From positions 1 to 56,598 of the forward strand of contig PWKY01000063.1 of the NCBI GenBank assembly GCA_003560595.1: a DNA stretch of 56,598 bases, given 5' to 3'. The number at the start of each line of letters is the position of its first letter. Position 1 is the stretch's first letter. This document shows positions 10,995 through 37,700 of this stretch, one piece after another. This stretch comes from Thermoplasmata archaeon (lineage in GTDB: Archaea > Thermoplasmatota > Thermoplasmata > Halarchaeoplasmatales > Halarchaeoplasmataceae). The notes under the pieces were generated by a model, which searched no databases, had not been told where the DNA came from, and worked only from the letters and a program-made list of their open reading frames with translations. Made by a program: the position numbers and the translations under genes.

Positions 10995-11209
10995 TAATTT
11001 CCTCCTTCTTCTTTTTTGTTTTCATTCATGACCGTAAGTATTCTAGCGATGTTCTTTTTTAAAGCCTTGATCCTTCCTGGACTCTCGGGAGCACCACCCA
11101 TCGCGGCCTGCCCTCGATCATGGAATAGTTCTCCTCTCATCTCTTTGAGCTTTTCTTTTTTTTCTTCATCGCTCATAAGTCTTATTTCTTCAGTTTTAAG
11201 CAGAGGCAT
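10994..11209 (-). CDS. rpl29: 50S ribosomal protein L29
   Basis: Protein uL29 at the exit tunnel rim, 71 residues, an antiparallel helical pair: [27 protein letters not shown], then [19 protein letters not shown]. The start overlaps the end of rps3 by 14 nt, showing that the long S3 tail is translated right up to the neighbour. Stop TAA. Confidence 0.94.
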
Positions 11210-12419
11210 CGTCTTTCACCTCGTTTTCATCATCTTCTTCATCAGCCTTCTCAACCTCGGGTTCAACCTTTTCTTTAGGATCTTCTTTCTTTGAATCCTT
11301 TTTCTCGGCTTTCTTTACCTTGGGTTCAACCCTTTCCTTAGGATCTTCTTTCTTTGAATCCTCTTTCTCGGCCTTCTTTACCTTGGGTTCAACCCTTTCC
11401 TTAGGATCTTCTTTCTTTGAATCCTCTTTCTCGGCCTTCTTTACCTTAGGTTCAACCTTTTCTTTAGGATCTTCTTTCTTTGAATCCTTTTCCTCGCCCT
11501 TCTTTACCTTGGGTTCAACCTTTTCTTTAGGATCTTCTTTCTTCGAATCCTTTTTCTCGGCCTTCTTTACCTTAGGTTCAACCTTTTCTTTAGGATCTTC
11601 TTTCTTTGAATCCTTTTCCTCGGCCTTCTTTACCTCGGCCTTCTTTACCTTGGGTTCAACCTTTTCTTTAGGATCTTCTTTCTTCGAATCCTTTTTCTCG
11701 GCCTTCTCAACCTTGGGTTCAACCCTTTCTTTTGACTTTTCCTCTTCAGGCTGTTTTTCTTTCTCGGGATCCTTAACTTGATCCACAGGTGAATCTTTCT
11801 CTTCTTTTGATTTATCATCCAACTTTGGAGCACTGACATCGATTTCATCAGGTAATCTTGCATTTGGATCCATGATCTGAACGGTCACACCGATCACACC
11901 AAGCTTAACTTTGGCAGTTGCAAATCCCTCATGCATCCACTTCTTTTCCTCCTCACCACAGTGCTTGATATGCCCGTCTACAAACTTTTCTACACGATGT
12001 CTAGGTCCAGTGATCTTTCCAGATAAAATGATCTGACAACCTCTAGCACCAGATTGTAATATGCGTCTGACAGTGGAGTGCCCGGCTCTTCTAAAATGCC
12101 ATCCCCTTTCTAAAGAATTAGCAAGTTTGGACGCCATTATCTGAGGATTGAGCTCTGGAACGTTAACTTCTTGAACTTCGATCTGAGGATTGTCAAAGTT
12201 GAATTTCTCTTGGACATCGGAGGTAAGTTTACGGATATTCCTACCCTTCCTTCCGATAACTAAAGCTGGACGTTCTATATGTAGAGTGATACGTGTTCCC
12301 ATAGGTGTTCTCGATACTTCACACCCTCCAAATCCGGCTCTATCAGTTTTGTCCTTGAGGTACTCTTTTAGCAATACACGGTTCATCTTTTCATTTATAA
12401 ATTTCTTTTCACTAGCCAA
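11196..12419 (-). CDS. rps3: 30S ribosomal protein S3 with a long repetitive KE-rich C-terminal tail
   Basis: Protein uS3 at the mRNA entry channel. Residues 1-200 form the usual KH domain (ERPALVIGRKGRNIRKL) and C-terminal S3 domain (GHSTVRRILQSGARGCQIILSGKI, ending VQIMDPNARLPDEIDV). Residues 205-407 are an extra tail made almost wholly of Lys, Glu, Asp, Pro, Val and Ala. It is built from seven copies of a 20-residue unit of the type DSKKEDPKEKVEPKVKKAEK, plus a partial copy and an acidic end. Archaeal S3 is usually about 200-260 residues, so the tail nearly doubles it. It is in frame and terminates inside rpl29, so it is probably expressed as a disordered polyampholyte. Confidence 0.93.
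   Translation of the reverse strand: MASEKKFINEKMNRVLLKEYLKDKTDRAGFGGCEVSRTPMGTRITLHIERPALVIGRKGRNIRKLTSDVQEKFNFDNPQIEVQEVNVPELNPQIMASKLANSLERGWHFRRAGHSTVRRILQSGARGCQIILSGKITGPRHRVEKFVDGHIKHCGEEEKKWMHEGFATAKVKLGVIGVTVQIMDPNARLPDEIDVSAPKLDDKSKEEKDSPVDQVKDPEKEKQPEEEKSKERVEPKVEKAEKKDSKKEDPKEKVEPKVKKAEVKKAEEKDSKKEDPKEKVEPKVKKAEKKDSKKEDPKEKVEPKVKKGEEKDSKKEDPKEKVEPKVKKAEKEDSKKEDPKERVEPKVKKAEKEDSKKEDPKERVEPKVKKAEKKDSKKEDPKEKVEPEVEKADEEDDENEVKDDASA
11250..11740 (-). repeat. 60-bp tandem repeat encoding the S3 tail
   Basis: About seven consecutive 60-bp units plus a partial one, nearly identical at the DNA level (core on the plus strand: TTCTTTAGGATCTTCTTTCT). One unit carries a 15-bp extra piece that repeats KKAEV. 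The high identity suggests recent expansion by slippage or unequal recombination. Copy number may be mis-assembled. Confidence 0.9.
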
Positions 12420-30534: not shown

Positions 30535-30570
30535 GACTAAAAACACAATAACCATAAATTAAAGCTTCCA

Positions 30571-30604
30571 TTAACGTTAAATATATGGTAAACCATATAC
30601 CATT
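30571..30604 (+). promoter_or_regulatory. Promoter and palindromic operator of the coiled-coil operon
   Basis: A TATA-like TTAAATATAT (30578-30587) is followed at once by the palindrome TATATGGTAAACCATATA (30582-30599; 8-bp arms, 2-nt spacer). A second half-site TACCAT extends to 30604. A perfect TTAACGTTAA palindrome lies at 30571-30580. The operator overlaps the TATA box and likely start site, 20-35 nt before the first ATG, so repression is likely. Confidence 0.55.
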
Positions 30605-30617
30605 CAGGTGTTGATCA

Positions 30618-30914
30618 ATGGGAGAAGAACCAAAGATAGGTATGATGGAGAGTGTAAAGGGTTACTTTAGAACGAAAGCTATTCGCCCCTCGGATAAGGC
30701 CGACCAGTACATCACAGGACACCTCCCAGAGTACATCGATGAATATAAGTTAGCTTTAAGAACAGATCTTCAAGGTATTGATAAAAGGATCGAAGAAACA
30801 CTGCGAGAAGTTAGGGATATGCAGGAGTGGAAAGAGAACACAGAAGAAAGATTAAAAGAAACTCGCCATAAGATCGAACGTATGGAGCAGGTATATGGAT
30901 TAAAGGAGGATTGA
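30618..30914 (+). CDS. Small helical protein A of the coiled-coil operon (98 aa)
   Basis: First gene of an operon of small proteins, preceded by GGTGTTGATCA. No membrane segment. Residues 31-90 align without gaps to residues 47-106 of the product at 31700 (18 of 60 identical): the core HLPEYIDEYKLALRTDL is followed by an amphipathic coiled coil (QEWKENTEERLKETRHKIERME). The N-terminal 30 residues are basic and unstructured. I recognise no known family. It is probably soluble and could pair with the membrane-anchored paralogue encoded next. Confidence 0.65.
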   Translation: MGEEPKIGMMESVKGYFRTKAIRPSDKADQYITGHLPEYIDEYKLALRTDLQGIDKRIEETLREVRDMQEWKENTEERLKETRHKIERMEQVYGLKED

Positions 30915-30918
30915 TCAA

Positions 30919-31269
30919 GTGACAACAACTATCTTAAGCCTCATTATCTTCTTTTTCATTTTGCTAGTCATATATCTATATTTTAGACACCGTGCTAGAA
31001 GTCAAGCCCTAGAACAGATGTATGGACATGTCCCAAGTCATGTTGAATTATATTTCAAAGAGTACTTTGACGAGATGGTCGAAAACTGGGACTTGGTGGA
31101 CAAAGAGAAAGCAAATAGTTGGTCTAATAAGATGGAGAATAGACTTAACGAAGTATCTAAACAGATCACATCGATCAAAAAGAGAAAGAAAAACATCGAT
31201 GGCAAGTTGGATGATGTAGAAGGACGGATCGCAAAGATCGAGAATTCATGGCGAAAAGAGGCAAGATAA
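30919..31269 (+). CDS. Membrane-anchored coiled-coil protein B (116 aa)
   Basis: GTG start 5 nt after gene A, with GGAGG upstream. Residues 2-22 form one hydrophobic helix, so the remainder is anchored, probably facing the cytosol given the following RHRARSQ. Residues 45-108 (YFKEYFDEMVENWDLVDKEK and a Lys/Glu coiled coil) resemble the shared domain of the products at 30618 and 31700. This makes it a membrane-bound paralogue of two soluble partners. No known family. Confidence 0.65.
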   Translation: MTTTILSLIIFFFILLVIYLYFRHRARSQALEQMYGHVPSHVELYFKEYFDEMVENWDLVDKEKANSWSNKMENRLNEVSKQITSIKKRKKNIDGKLDDVEGRIAKIENSWRKEAR

Positions 31270-31270
31270 A

Positions 31271-31696
31271 ATGTTAACCCTTGTAGCAGTAACAGAGACC
31301 GTGTCTGATAATTTCATGAATATCTTTTACGCCATAGTGGTTGTACTTGTTCTTTACATAATCGCTAGGGTCGTTATCACACATGAAAAAGAAAAGACCC
31401 GTTTGAAAAGTGCAGATCTACGATTAAAGGCAAAAAAGATGGATATGCTGGAAAAAGAACGTTACCTTAAAGGTCTGAAAGAAGCCTCGATGGTACTGAA
31501 GGATGACGAAAAAACTAGGATAGACGAACTGGAACGAGATAAGGCGATCCTATCAAGGAGGAGCCTTGCCTTGATGAACGAGATCGAGGAACGGATGCAG
31601 AGACTGGAACGGGGAACGGATAACGCCAAACTACTAAAAACTCTTAAGGATATAAAGGTAGCTGAAAAAGAATTATTTGGAAAAGAAGGGGGTTAA
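31271..31696 (+). CDS. Membrane-anchored coiled-coil protein C (141 aa)
   Basis: One membrane helix at about residues 15-36 (NIFYAIVVVLVLYIIARVVI), preceded by a short, probably external N-terminus. About 100 residues of charged coiled coil follow (EKTRLKSADLRLKAKKMDMLEKERYLKG, then IDELERDKAILSRR), ending ELFGKEGG. It does not obviously share the domain of its neighbours. It starts 1 nt after the previous stop. Function unknown. Confidence 0.6.
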   Translation: MLTLVAVTETVSDNFMNIFYAIVVVLVLYIIARVVITHEKEKTRLKSADLRLKAKKMDMLEKERYLKGLKEASMVLKDDEKTRIDELERDKAILSRRSLALMNEIEERMQRLERGTDNAKLLKTLKDIKVAEKELFGKEGG

Positions 31697-31699
31697 AAA

Positions 31700-32029
31700 A
31701 TGGAAGAATATGCGGATAGATATGCACAAAAAAAGGAAGACTTATTCGATCGGATACAGGAGTTTCTCTTCCCGGGTGAAGTTGAAATCGAAGGTACGGG
31801 GTACGAACGCAGTCTGTTGGATCGAAGGATCGAGAAATACTTAGATAAACATTTTGATGAATATATACAGGAGTATGGACTTGTAAGGGAATTGGACCTT
31901 ATAGTGTATGAGGAAAAATTATCGGAGATACTAGATGGAATAAAAGATATAAAAGAGTTTCAGGATGACACGGGTGCTACCATCGCAGAATTTGAAAGGC
32001 GTTTAGACCGATTAGAAAGTGAATTGTAG
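31700..32029 (+). CDS. Small helical protein D of the coiled-coil operon (109 aa)
   Basis: Soluble paralogue of protein A: KHFDEYIQEYGLVRELDL followed by a coiled coil (EKLSEILDGIKDIKEF...FERRLDRLESEL). The N-terminal 45 residues are acidic and differ from protein A. GGGGG lies 5-10 nt before the ATG. The stop is TAG; reading through would add only ten codons. No known family. Confidence 0.63.
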   Translation: MEEYADRYAQKKEDLFDRIQEFLFPGEVEIEGTGYERSLLDRRIEKYLDKHFDEYIQEYGLVRELDLIVYEEKLSEILDGIKDIKEFQDDTGATIAEFERRLDRLESEL

Positions 32030-32040
32030 GTGGTGAAAGT

Positions 32041-32373
32041 CTGGCTGAAAAAAGAAAGCTGAAAAAAATATTAAACAGCTATATACTCGCCCAGGAGGAT
32101 AACCCTCACAAACGCTTGAAGCTGTTACAAAAGTACCTCAAAGCTAAAGGCATCGCAGATATCAGCCTTAAAGAACTTCGGACTCGGGTTCATAGGATTA
32201 AAAAAACATCCGATAGAAAAAAGAACACCGATAAGATCGAGGCATTATTGTTCACTAGAGAGGGTACACCTAAGCGAAATAGATACGGTTCTTCTTTCTG
32301 CACCAAATGTAATATGTACAAGGACTATGAAAAAGAATGCCCTTATTGTGGGAGTCTTGAATTAACACTGTGA
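32041..32373 (+). CDS. Helical zinc-ribbon protein, probable CTG start (110 aa)
   Basis: The frame opens after a stop at 32020 and contains no ATG or GTG near its beginning. A strong ribosome site GGTGGTGA (32029-32036) is followed at ideal spacing by CTG 32041; the alternative is TTG 32116, which would remove 25 residues and lacks a binding site. The product begins with a basic helical region (AEKRKLKKILNSYILAQEDN), continues with RTRVHRIKKTSDRKK, and ends with a zinc ribbon (CTKC...CPYCG). The TGA overlaps the next start (GTGA). Function unknown; nucleic acid binding is possible. Confidence 0.55.
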   Translation: MAEKRKLKKILNSYILAQEDNPHKRLKLLQKYLKAKGIADISLKELRTRVHRIKKTSDRKKNTDKIEALLFTREGTPKRNRYGSSFCTKCNMYKDYEKECPYCGSLELTL

Positions 32374-32870
32374 GTGATAAAATGGAAACTATATTGTATT
32401 CAGATATGATAAGAAAACCGGTAGAGAAACCAAACCAAAGGGCAAATTCAAAGTTAGTAGAGATCGTAGCCCATCGTGGCGACAAACACTGGTATGCAAA
32501 CGAAGTGAAGATCGAATCAGGGATAATCGACAAAGAAGGTGCATATTACCCCGTATCTACTTTAGAAGGCATCGGTGATGATACAACGTTTATGCTAAAA
32601 CCCAAGGAACGTGGGAGACTAAAACCAAAGAAACCAGATTCTTTTTTCCTATCCGGCTTGATGAAAAAGAAGGTTGTTGATAAGTCTGGGGAAGAAATTG
32701 GACGGATTTATGACTTTGAACTATATGTTGGTAGATCTCCCTGGATAGTTTGGAAGATATTGATCAATCCTACCGGCCTTAAACCCACCAAAAAAAGATT
32801 AAGGATACCTACTCAAGATGTATCTAAAATATCATCGGATAAAGTAACTCTAAAAACCGAATTGCCGTGA
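32370..32870 (+). CDS. Tandem PRC-barrel protein (166 aa)
   Basis: GTG start overlapping the previous stop (GTGA). The C-terminal half (residues 92-163) is a clear PRC-barrel: FFLSGLMKKKVVDKSGEEIGRIYDFEL, then RLRIPTQDVSKISSDKVTLKTE. The N-terminal half (6-76) has the same pattern in weaker form (YSDMIRKPVEK, then AYYPVSTLEGIGDDTTFML), so it looks like two PRC-barrels in tandem. PRC-barrel proteins occur in the photosynthetic reaction centre H subunit, RimM and, in haloarchaea, the CdpB cell-division proteins that bridge SepF and a membrane partner. The link to division is inference only. Confidence 0.7.
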   Translation: MSDKMETILYSDMIRKPVEKPNQRANSKLVEIVAHRGDKHWYANEVKIESGIIDKEGAYYPVSTLEGIGDDTTFMLKPKERGRLKPKKPDSFFLSGLMKKKVVDKSGEEIGRIYDFELYVGRSPWIVWKILINPTGLKPTKKRLRIPTQDVSKISSDKVTLKTELP

Positions 32871-32876
32871 GATATC

Positions 32877-33098
32877 ATGAACAACTGGATGTTATCGCTG
32901 GGAATAATAGTCATCGTCGTACTAGTGATCATCTTGTTATTTTATCTCGTAAGGTGGAAAAGAAGGGAAAAGGAAATGAAAAAAGAATTGGACGATATAA
33001 CCCGGATGATCTTTGATATAAAGGAAAGACTTCACGAAGTTAGATATAAGAGACCCATGGATGTGAAGATCGATCTCGAAGAAAAAAGAAGGATATAA
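32877..33098 (+). CDS. Short membrane-anchored coiled-coil protein (73 aa)
   Basis: One strongly hydrophobic helix (residues 4-26, WMLSLGIIVIVVLVIILLFYL) at the very N-terminus, then a basic stop-transfer RWKRREKEMKK and a short amphipathic helix (ELDDITRMIFDIKERLHEV). The ATG follows the PRC-barrel gene by 6 nt. Its topology is like that of protein B. Unrecognised family. Confidence 0.6.
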   Translation: MNNWMLSLGIIVIVVLVIILLFYLVRWKRREKEMKKELDDITRMIFDIKERLHEVRYKRPMDVKIDLEEKRRI

Positions 33099-33120
33099 TT
33101 TGAGGATATTGAAAATGTTT

Positions 33121-33181
33121 TTGTCAGACGATCACAGGGTAAATCTTAAATCGTATGGGTTCGATCCCTATATTGTCAGAC
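33121..33181 (+). repeat. 9-bp direct repeats around a T-arm-like hairpin
   Basis: TTGTCAGAC occurs at 33121-33129 and again at 33173-33181. Between them lies GGGTTCGATCCC, which with its flanks forms a 5-bp stem and 7-nt loop like a tRNA T arm. No matching acceptor, D or anticodon arm is found, so it is not a complete tRNA. It could be a tRNA-fragment remnant or a hairpin in the mRNA. Confidence 0.35.
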
Positions 33182-33197
33182 AACAAAGATGATTATC

Positions 33198-33503
33198 ATG
33201 TGTAAGTATAGGTACGGAACGGGTAAATATGGCCAAGGCAGATGCGCACATCCAAGCAACCTTTCTATAGATTGTGTAGGTGAAAAATCGTGTCGTATGA
33301 TGGTAGATGAGACGTTTACTGGTGATACCTTAGATGAAGTAAAAGGTTATCACAGATCAAAGGATAATACAGAAGAAAGCTGTCCAAACACAACATGTGG
33401 AGTATATTGTCAAAAATACAATCGTTTCTACTGTGCAGGTGAAGAGAACTGTCAGACTGAAGACGAGTATAAAGTCCACATGAACATGTACGGTAGTAAT
33501 TAG
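33198..33503 (+). CDS. Small Cys-rich protein (101 aa)
   Basis: At least ten cysteines in 101 residues: CKYRYGTGKYGQGRCAHPSN, then DCVGEKSCRM, then SCPNTTCGVYCQKYNRFYCAGEENCQ. The pattern suggests metal binding, either zinc or an Fe-S cluster. No signal peptide. An ATG three codons earlier (33189) is possible. It is separated from the coiled-coil operon by 99 nt but is co-directional and may be its last gene. The stop is TAG, 1 nt from the convergent GPN GTPase gene. I do not recognise the family. Confidence 0.55.
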   Translation: MCKYRYGTGKYGQGRCAHPSNLSIDCVGEKSCRMMVDETFTGDTLDEVKGYHRSKDNTEESCPNTTCGVYCQKYNRFYCAGEENCQTEDEYKVHMNMYGSN

Positions 33504-35204: not shown

Positions 35205-35414
35205 ACTTGAAACCCTTTCCTATATTGTTTTACCCTGATCTCTTTCTCAGAACTCATAGGGATCATCATCGGATGGTGCCTCAACATAAGATTTTTCATC
35301 ATCGAAAGAAGATCAAGGTTGATGTAAATTGTATTGATGATATTAGGATTTTTAGGTATTCTAGGGGAAATTAAAAAATACAAACCCCGTATTACCTAAT
35401 TTAAAGTGATAACG

Positions 35415-37700
35415 ATGCAGATGCCCGCTGGAAAAACGATAAGGACCGAATTTGGAGGAAAAGGCGTACTAGAAGATTTTTTTAAGGAGTTCAATGATAA
35501 ATCCATCGAAGGGTATCTTCAAACTAGTTTAACCAAGGACTCAGAGCGTTGTATAGGAAGGATTTTTTTCTACAAAGGGGAGCCTATCGCCTCGGCAAGA
35601 CATGGGAAAAAAGATAAGTTTGGGAAAAAATCGCTCAGGGAGATCGCTGCGGATTCTCTCGACGAAGACTGTCTTCTAGAGCTACATTCTTACTCTTATC
35701 GATCTTCATCCATATCTGTTGAACACATACTCAAAAACAAAGAGAACTGGTATATCCGGGAGGATATCAATATATCCCTAGAACTCGATAGAGCTAGCCG
35801 TAGATATAAAGGAGAAGATACAGAGGACAAGATCACTACCGCACCACTAAAAGACATCGAAATAAGTAGATCGGATATAGATGTAGATATTGGTACTATG
35901 GAGGAAAGACCCAGGCATATAATCCCGAGCTCGGATGATGATATAGTAGAGAGGGCTGAAAAAAAACTTTTGAAAATGAAAGAAGGTAAGCTCAAGAATG
36001 AACTTGAAGAGATGAAAGAAAAGCTAGATTCAAGGCAGGTCGAGCTCAGGGAAAAAGAAAATGAATTACAAGATTGGGCCGATAAACTTACTGAAAAGGA
36101 AGATGAACTAAAACAAAGGTCCGCCGAAGTAAAAAAAGAGATGAACGAAGTACGGAATATCTGGTCTGAGATGAGAACAGAGAGTGCAAAGATATCTAAA
36201 GCAAGAGCCGAACTGGAAAACAAAATAAGCGAACAGATGGCCAGAGAAGAAGAACTGTTGGAAAAAGAGAGGGATCTACGGGAGTTGAAAAGAGATCTAG
36301 AACAGTGGGAAGTAGATATCAAATCCCGGTCTTCTAAATTGGGTGTAATGGAGGAGGAACTCAGCAATTGGGAACGAGATATATCTAACAAAGAAAAACG
36401 TTTAGATTCCATGGAGCTTGATATCGAACAGAGGGAAGAGGATGTATTTGAGAAAGAGATAGGTCTTCAGGAGCAAAACAAAGAATTAAAAGATAAAAAG
36501 GAGAGGTTAGAAGAAACCGAACAGCAGATAAAGAAGGTAAAAGAAAGTTTAGAAAATCGAGAAAGGGAGGCGAAATTGAAGGAAGAGGAGTTGAAAGTAA
36601 AAGAGGAAAACCTTTCTCAAAGGGAAGATAAATTAGACCGAGAACAAGAGAAAGTAAAGGAGTTAAAAGCAGGATTAAAATCCGATCGGGAATCCATCAA
36701 AAGGATGAAAAAAGATTTGCTATCTAAAGAAAGTTCATTACAACGTAAGGAATCTGAGCTAGAGGAATTAGATAAGGAACTGGATGAGAGGAAGGAAGGA
36801 TTGGATGATAAAAAATCAGAGCTAGATAAACGTACGATCACCCTCAATGAAAGAGAGATAGAACTCACCAAACGAGATAATGAATTAGATAATAAAGCCG
36901 ATAAGATAATGGCTGCGCAGGAGGATGTGGAAGAAGAAAAGGATCGTTTGATAGAGTGGCGTGAGTCCTTGAAAAGAAAGGAAGAACGCCTTGAACAAGA
37001 CAAAGAGAAGCTCGATAAGAGAGAGGAAGATTTAGAAAACAAATATCAGGAACGCTTATCGGATCTAGATTCCAAAGAAGAAGAATTAAAGGAGTTGAAG
37101 AGAAGTCTCAGTGGGCGGAAGGGTGCACTGCAGCGTAAAGAAAATATCCTTGACGATAGGGAAGAGAAATTGGATGAACGCGGATCTAAACTCGATGAAA
37201 GGGAAGAGCAGTTGGAAGAGCAAGAGGAAAACATAGAGAAGGGGATGCAGGAACTCAATGAAAAACGGAGGCAGGTCATGGAGGAGTTGGATCAGCAACG
37301 AGATAAGTTGAAGGACGAAAAAAGTGCTCTGAAAACTAAAAAAGAAGACCTTAAAAAGCAAGAAAAGGAATTACAAGATAAGGCAGAGAAAATCAAGATG
37401 AAGTTAGCAGATATCATGGATGATCGTGATGAGCTTGATGAAAAAGAGATACAGTTAAAAAAGCTTGAGGATGACCTATCAGAAAGGGAAAACTCTTTGG
37501 TAGGAAAAGAAAGCGACTTTGCAGCTAGAGAAAAGGAGCTAGATATCAAAGAGAAAGAGCTGTTAAACAAAGAAAAATCTTTGGATGACCGGGAGTCTGA
37601 TTTAGAGACCAGAGAAGCTCAGATGGAGGAGAAAGAAGACCTTTTCTCTAAGAAGAAGAATTCTCTAGATGAGATAAGAAAAGGTCTTGATGAGATCTGA
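35415..37700 (+). CDS. Giant coiled-coil protein (761 aa) with an N-terminal globular domain
   Basis: Residues 1-115 are globular (TEFGGKGVLEDFFKEFND, then GRIFFYKGEPIASARHGKK and a LREIAADSL helix) and recall DUF2226/DUF4388-type domains, in which a short strand-rich module carries a FxxGxPxxA turn. Residues 115-175 form an acidic linker. Residues 180-761 are an almost unbroken coiled coil rich in Glu, Lys, Leu, Arg and Asp, with units such as LDEREEELEEQEENIE. No membrane segment. Predicted as a rod tens of nanometres long, possibly cytoskeletal or scaffolding. ATG 35415 follows GTGAT; a GTG at 35406 is in frame. Stop TGA. Confidence 0.75.
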   Translation: MQMPAGKTIRTEFGGKGVLEDFFKEFNDKSIEGYLQTSLTKDSERCIGRIFFYKGEPIASARHGKKDKFGKKSLREIAADSLDEDCLLELHSYSYRSSSISVEHILKNKENWYIREDINISLELDRASRRYKGEDTEDKITTAPLKDIEISRSDIDVDIGTMEERPRHIIPSSDDDIVERAEKKLLKMKEGKLKNELEEMKEKLDSRQVELREKENELQDWADKLTEKEDELKQRSAEVKKEMNEVRNIWSEMRTESAKISKARAELENKISEQMAREEELLEKERDLRELKRDLEQWEVDIKSRSSKLGVMEEELSNWERDISNKEKRLDSMELDIEQREEDVFEKEIGLQEQNKELKDKKERLEETEQQIKKVKESLENREREAKLKEEELKVKEENLSQREDKLDREQEKVKELKAGLKSDRESIKRMKKDLLSKESSLQRKESELEELDKELDERKEGLDDKKSELDKRTITLNEREIELTKRDNELDNKADKIMAAQEDVEEEKDRLIEWRESLKRKEERLEQDKEKLDKREEDLENKYQERLSDLDSKEEELKELKRSLSGRKGALQRKENILDDREEKLDERGSKLDEREEQLEEQEENIEKGMQELNEKRRQVMEELDQQRDKLKDEKSALKTKKEDLKKQEKELQDKAEKIKMKLADIMDDRDELDEKEIQLKKLEDDLSERENSLVGKESDFAAREKELDIKEKELLNKEKSLDDRESDLETREAQMEEKEDLFSKKKNSLDEIRKGLDEI

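Follow-up and report, generated by a model that had tools for sequence, protein, structure and literature searches.

The contig PWKY01000063.1 of a Thermoplasmata archaeon (Halarchaeoplasmataceae) carries, at positions 30618-33503 of the 56,598 nt analysed here (hereafter the window), eight open reading frames (ORFs) on the plus strand, which make up a tightly packed operon, g1-g7, and an adjoining gene, g8. The operon belongs to a single conserved cassette, with the same genes, strand, and order maintained in differing contexts at 13 loci of the family and 14 loci of other classes, and its range covers three or more classes of Thermoplasmatota. Its composition, gene order, transmembrane (TM) anchor, paralogy, and predicted PRC fold are established by sequence, and we propose, with a probability of about 0.45, that it encodes a membrane-tethered PRC/coiled-coil scaffold, most likely partnered by the machinery of FtsZ-based division or of cell shape. 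The cassette seems to be undescribed, and an earlier mention of such tandem PRC proteins is possible.

Proteins of the cassette

Three of the core subunits, g1 (30618-30914), g2 (30919-31269), and g4 (31700-32029), have heptad-patterned tails and are paralogues. Profile similarity in hhalign is 97% for g1 and g4 and 94% for g2 and g4, and in single-sequence searches g1 and g4 recover one another, with E values reaching 1e-9. All three share a head before the coil, Y/H-F-x-E-Y-I-x-E-Y-x-L, which is most conserved in g4 (YxR...D..iEkyLD..f..Yi.E). The g1 product (98 aa) is soluble, with a short head and a coiled coil; g2 (116 aa) has an N-terminal TM helix followed by a cytosolic head and coiled coil; and g4 (109 aa) is a soluble and very acidic coiled coil (net charge -16). 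Weak matches of g1, g2, g4, and g7 in Pfam, NCBIfam, and PHROG (Tropomyosin, CdvA, FtsL, FlbB, holins) reflect coil and TM composition, and we make no use of them.

The fourth core subunit in the window, g6 (32370-32870, with a conserved ATG start at 32382), is predicted to have a PRC-barrel fold like that of CdpB. The Pfam scan of the window's g6 gives a single PRC match, just under the cut-off, and PF05239 (PRC) is matched at E <= 0.01 by each of the 14 g6 members scanned. The AlphaFold2 model (predicted local distance difference test, pLDDT, 82) contains two successive barrels, and all four top chains in a Foldseek search come from one entry, 8qzo, the structure of Archaeoglobus fulgidus CdpB. 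VIA-align superposes 142 of the 162 residues on the two-PRC 8qzo chain, which may be tandem by nature or have been linked artificially, with a Z of 15.1 at 2.9 Å, the next entry having a Z of 9.6; a g6 profile that includes distant members matches both halves of this 182-residue chain with an E of 1e-4. However, a separate CdpB1-like single-PRC protein in the same genome matches 8qzo far better (E 1.9e-14), and g6 therefore appears to be at best a paralogue of CdpB1/CdpB2. We note also that this genome (contig C64, L206 4689-7186) has a second gene for a single-PRC, CdpB-like protein, which immediately follows a CDC48 gene.

A fifth core gene, g7b, is absent from the window operon and present in most relatives. 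It encodes a protein of about 103 aa that matches the CDC48 N-terminal double-psi barrel (DPBB) as well as solved DPBB proteins; 11 of the 12 members scanned match CDC48_N at E <= 0.01, although the best of these matches is a weak 4e-7, and two scores, 21.9 and 22.8 bits, are under the gathering cut-off of 35.1. In most loci of the family the interval between g7 and g8 is about 350-400 nt and is occupied by g7b, the operon lacking it at five loci (the window, L022, L027, L032, and L034). We had considered an RNA gene in the approximately 380 nt gap of the relatives, but there is no Rfam or tRNA match there and the gap holds g7b.

The remaining operon proteins are g3 (31271-31696; 141 aa), with an N-terminal TM helix and a conserved helical domain; g5 (32041-32373; 110 aa), with a helical N-terminal domain, a C-terminal zinc ribbon (CxxC..CPYC), and a net charge of +15; and g7 (32877-33098; 73 aa), a TM helix with a short cytosolic helical tail that is found only in the window's family. 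The single TM helices of g2, g3, and g7 show up as a strongly hydrophobic stretch close to the N-terminus of each protein (Kyte-Doolittle 2.8-3.3). Among the proteins of the window, g4 and g5 are the extremes of charge, and g6 is also strongly basic. The start of g5 probably lies at CTG 32041-32043, about 25 codons upstream of the listed TTG at 32116; the CTG is preceded by a Shine-Dalgarno-like GGTGGTGA and is also present in the near relative L021 (5712-5714), and other relatives have TTG, GTG, or ATG in the same position. The ORF as listed is too short, the conserved protein probably beginning at the CTG. The g5 model (pLDDT 77) has no Foldseek match below an E of 1 and a best VIA-align Z of 3.9; we treat such weak structure matches as uninformative, and not as evidence of a new fold.

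Between the window and L021 the eight ORFs have 50-83% amino acid identity, and since the nucleotide differences cluster at codon position 3, all eight are truly coding. An earlier note on this DNA, made from the sequence without database searches, described an array of tightly packed genes, and the spacings from g1 to g7 (4, 1, 3, 11, -4, and 6 nt) agree with this, although the gap between g7 and g8 is 90 rather than 99 nt. We also find its three single-pass membrane proteins, zinc-ribbon protein, tandem PRC-barrel protein, and Cys-rich protein (g8), and domain and profile scans of the array products revealed no recognisable enzyme, as it had stated. It had not recognised that g1, g2, and g4 are paralogues, that relatives have g7b as well, or that g6 is predicted to fold like CdpB.

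Conservation within and beyond the halophilic family

The window's lineage is a halophilic order of Thermoplasmatota described from soda-saline lake sediment, for which a salt-in strategy is thought probable (PMC11332174). The genomes compared are fragmentary metagenome-assembled genomes, and we identified g4 in 14 of 16 from the family, including all nine with completeness of at least 90%; searches with g3, g5, and g6 return the same 14 genomes. Of the two that lack the cassette, one (G007) is only 64% complete, and in the other (G003) the absence is put down to a contig break, its contig stopping 61 nt upstream of g8. Order and spacing are maintained at 13 family loci that are complete or nearly so, as they are at the 14 loci of other classes described below, and the order g1-g8 is kept in six genera (in G012 the operon is divided between contigs C105 and C91). 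A convergent gene for a GPN-loop GTPase follows g8, usually with an ArsR-like helix-turn-helix (HTH) gene beyond it, and the upstream flank is variable. In several genera, and not in others, the gene downstream of the HTH gene encodes a large coiled-coil protein (764 aa at 35406-37700 in the window, with a conserved N-terminal domain and a coiled coil of about 600 residues that has an RNase Y N-terminal-like match). The cassette is also duplicated within the family: G011 has a second array, g7b-g1'-g2'-g3'-g4', running up to a contig end (L107), and a G005 fragment contains g7b, g1', and the beginning of g2' before it too is cut by a contig end (L108).

At the level of the class, g3, g5, and g6 had no convincing homologues outside the family in our searches (g3 and g5 occur in 14 of 200 genomes, all in the family), and a GTDB-wide scan for the g3 pattern found 13 loci, again all in the family, the named relatives being Candidatus Halarchaeoplasma, Saliniplasma, and Haladaptatiplasma. 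The lineage-restricted distribution that this would imply was overturned by a phylum-level search with g4, which revealed homologues with E values of 1e-13 to 1e-21 in eleven genomes of other classes. All 14 of the other-class loci examined carry the cassette, a few of them cut by contig ends. Outside the family it has a tightly packed core of five genes, g7b, g1, g2, g4, and g6, which are in this order in most of family f40; G236 has the order g6-g7b-g1-g2-g4, G225 has g7b-g1-g2-g4-g6 followed by g3-g5, and G209 and G218 have g1-g2-g3-g4-g5-g6 with g7b located 0.8-2.9 kb away. In every complete locus g3 and g5 are either jointly present or jointly absent. The class of G231, which does not include G209 and G218, has the cassette in 9 of 12 genomes and in all five near-complete ones, some with two copies; second copies are present in G231, G217, and G261.

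The flanks of the other-class loci differ, and include genes for lysyl-tRNA synthetase with a phosphoribosyltransferase-like gene, an Na/H exchanger, and cadherin-like surface proteins. Prok-RING_2 zinc proteins adjoin the cassette in L223 (8982-9386) and L224 (8120-8527) and are a possible extra subunit. In a tree built from concatenated g1, g2, g4, and g6 the family is set apart from the remaining loci with 100% support, a result compatible with vertical descent accompanied by local duplication. The cassette is ancient and has been conserved repeatedly. The conserved order in other Thermoplasmatota by which the earlier note had proposed to check its suggestion is thus present, g1-g7 being constant in the family and the core being found in all 14 other-class loci, and the homologues are neighbours, so that the scattering which would have told against one system is not observed.

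Promoters, g8, and other features of the window

A 20 nt element, TTCCATTAATRTTAAATATA, lies upstream of g1 on the plus strand (30566-30585) and occurs just once in the window, even allowing up to four mismatches. Within one sub-clade most loci share it: it occupies the equivalent position in the window, L021-L023, L025, and L026, and is weaker in L032. The earlier note had instead placed the whole array behind one promoter controlled by a palindrome, TATATGGT-AA-ACCATATA (30582-30599, unstranded; 8 nt arms with a 2 nt spacer). We reject this control, because a perfect arm of at least 8 nt is a chance-level feature, present in 6.4% of shuffles of the AT-rich stretch around it (P 0.06), and the palindrome has no conserved counterpart in the other 12 loci; it is unsupported as an operator.

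Nor does g8 (33189-33503, plus strand; Cys-rich, with two Cys4 repeats) belong to the same unit, as had been supposed, since the 90 nt gap before it contains its own TATA box and an operator-like pair of sites; it is a conserved neighbour of the operon and a separate transcription unit. The pair, TGTCAGAC, is located at 33122-33129 and 33174-33181 (33122-33181 overall, unstranded) and flanks the TATA box; the TGTCNGAC pair is present around this box with a spacing of 51-54 nt in seven loci (the window and L021-L026) from three genera. In a strict-pattern search of the 16 family genomes all of the matches to the pair are upstream of g8, and a reversed control pattern gave none. The pair may be bound by a dedicated autoregulator or by the nearby ArsR-like HTH protein. 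Homologues of g8 are present in 62 of 200 genomes of the class (15 of them in the family), and those outside the family have other neighbours, the cassette being absent from the neighbourhoods read; this wide and independent distribution, together with its promoter, leads us to reject g8 as a subunit of the cassette. In L027-L032 and L034 a nucleotide-conserved leader, GGATGGGATGCC, immediately precedes the g8 start codon, and it is perhaps a regulatory element, because a stop codon interrupts its in-frame reading in L029.

Elsewhere in the window, an ORF at 11196-12419 begins with a ribosomal protein S3-like domain and ends in a tail made up of KKAE(K/E)KDSKKEDPKEKVEPK repeats. A tRNA on the minus strand at 2-108 is matched by Rfam and not found by ARAGORN, and its length of 107 nt suggests an intron.

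A proposed membrane-tethered scaffold and its alternatives

The membrane-attached structural assembly envisaged in the earlier note is the most plausible reading of the cassette, and it is inferred only. In the arrangement we propose, g1, g2, and g4 would join as one heteromeric coiled coil, which g2 would hold on the inner face of the membrane, with g3 and g7 providing further anchors in the window's family. The tandem PRC protein g6 would bind this bundle, in an arrangement resembling that of CdvA, whose PRC domain packs against a coil of three helices, and would act as a docking platform for the partner, for which the apparatus of FtsZ-based division or cell shape is the likeliest candidate. 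Assembly would be aided by the opposite charges on g4 and g5. CdpB1/B2 bind SepF (PMC11188069), and FtsZ-superfamily proteins are present in all 16 family genomes, with three to eight matches each, as is SepF in 13 of them. The window's genome (G000) has SepF and an unusually large set of seven FtsZ-superfamily matches, of which four or more exceed the FtsZ cut-off; these matches are on contigs C39, C26, C38, and C40 (L201, L202, L204, L207, and L208), and two of the genes, separated by 4 kb, lie around genes for ribosomal stalk proteins.

Several considerations weigh against the scaffold. No FtsZ or SepF gene was recognised beside the cassette to tie it directly to either protein, and we keep the functional assignment below even odds. 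The window's genome already encodes separate CdpB1-like and CdpB2-like single-PRC proteins, and division proper may therefore not need g6. PRC barrels are known also in RNA proteins (RimM), the structure models are of single chains, and heptad repeats inflate coiled-coil profile probabilities, although the shared head motif sits outside the heptads.

The main rival, which we consider unlikely, is that the cassette forms a membrane-bound adaptor hub for CDC48-type unfoldase and proteolysis, with g7b, the zinc ribbon, and RING-like proteins recruiting clients while the PRC and coiled-coil proteins hold the hub on the membrane. At most loci read, g7b is within the cassette or close to it, and nearly all members match CDC48_N; this would fit such a role, as would the adjoining Prok-RING_2 proteins of L223 and L224 and the single-PRC gene next to CDC48 in the window's genome; yet the CDC48_N matches are all weak, g7b is missing from the operon at five family loci including the window, and the cassette has neither a protease nor an ATPase. 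We think it distinctly improbable that the products are instead an RNA or ribosome-assembly complex, in which a RimM-like PRC protein and the basic g5, as a nucleic acid binder, would be localised to the membrane for translation-coupled insertion. A weak match of g6 to RimM (E 0.013; Foldseek 1e-3), the strongly basic g5 and g6 in a lineage described as probably salt-in, and the lysyl-tRNA synthetase genes that adjoin several f40 loci point in this direction, but the full-length match of g6 is to CdpB, that to RimM (Z 9.2) covering one half only, and the synthetase neighbourhood was seen in f40 and nowhere else.

It is comparably improbable, if anything slightly more so, that the cassette is simply a conserved neighbourhood of co-transcribed small housekeeping proteins that form no physical complex. 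The evidence on the cassette comes from genes and single-chain models, and the GPN GTPase and HTH neighbours are likewise conserved in the family; however, unlike its flanks, the cassette keeps its composition across genomic contexts, and it has been duplicated as a unit, both within the family and as second copies in G231, G217, and G261. Small uncharacterised proteins in a tight operon with a patchy distribution across the phylum might also suggest a mobile or defence element, but this is largely refuted by the universal presence of the cassette in near-complete family genomes; in addition the family forms a fully supported clade, PADLOC and PHROG scans gave only weak coil or TM matches, and a search for viral relatives of g4 found none. 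We regard this last explanation as very improbable indeed.

Returning to the scaffold, its significance is that few parts of archaeal divisomes are known (FtsZ, SepF, CdpB, CdpA, and Cdv), and that Thermoplasmatota differ in the set (PMC11188069). The cassette is a concrete candidate for a missing membrane-organising component, pairing a CdpB-like protein with a dedicated membrane anchor, and this candidacy is backed by its distribution over three or more classes and by the fact that, in two groups, no near-complete genome lacks it; the small size of the five core proteins would permit direct reconstitution.

Comparison with known systems helps to define what is proposed. The g7b protein resembles the CDC48 N-terminal double-psi barrel and solved DPBB proteins, but it stands alone without AAA domains, and the matches shown in full are under the Pfam gathering score. 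Among the PRC-barrel division proteins CdpB1/CdpB2 (PDB 8qzo, 8onw), it is the two-PRC 8qzo chain on which the g6 model superposes, and both halves of that chain are also matched by sequence; in contrast to these proteins, g6 is a divergent tandem protein within a coiled-coil membrane operon, and the likeness is one read from sequence and model. CdvA, the nearest characterised case, consists of a PRC domain and a three-helix coiled coil, forms filaments, and has its PRC domain packed on the coil (PMC12818579), and this combination at the membrane is reminiscent of a cassette with one PRC protein and three coiled-coil proteins. No CdvB or CdvC gene was recognised beside the cassette, a genome-wide CdvB search not having been made, and we treat the resemblance as analogy rather than homology. 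A rather doubtful, more specific form of the scaffold would make it CdvA's counterpart, split and anchored in the membrane, with a CdpB-like double PRC and a heterotrimeric coil constituting a polymer or platform that organises the membrane of FtsZ-rich Thermoplasmatota. Whereas CdvA combines the two elements, in all of the cassette loci read the PRC (g6) and the coils (g1, g2, and g4) are separate genes, the PRC is doubled, and one of the coil chains has its own TM helix.

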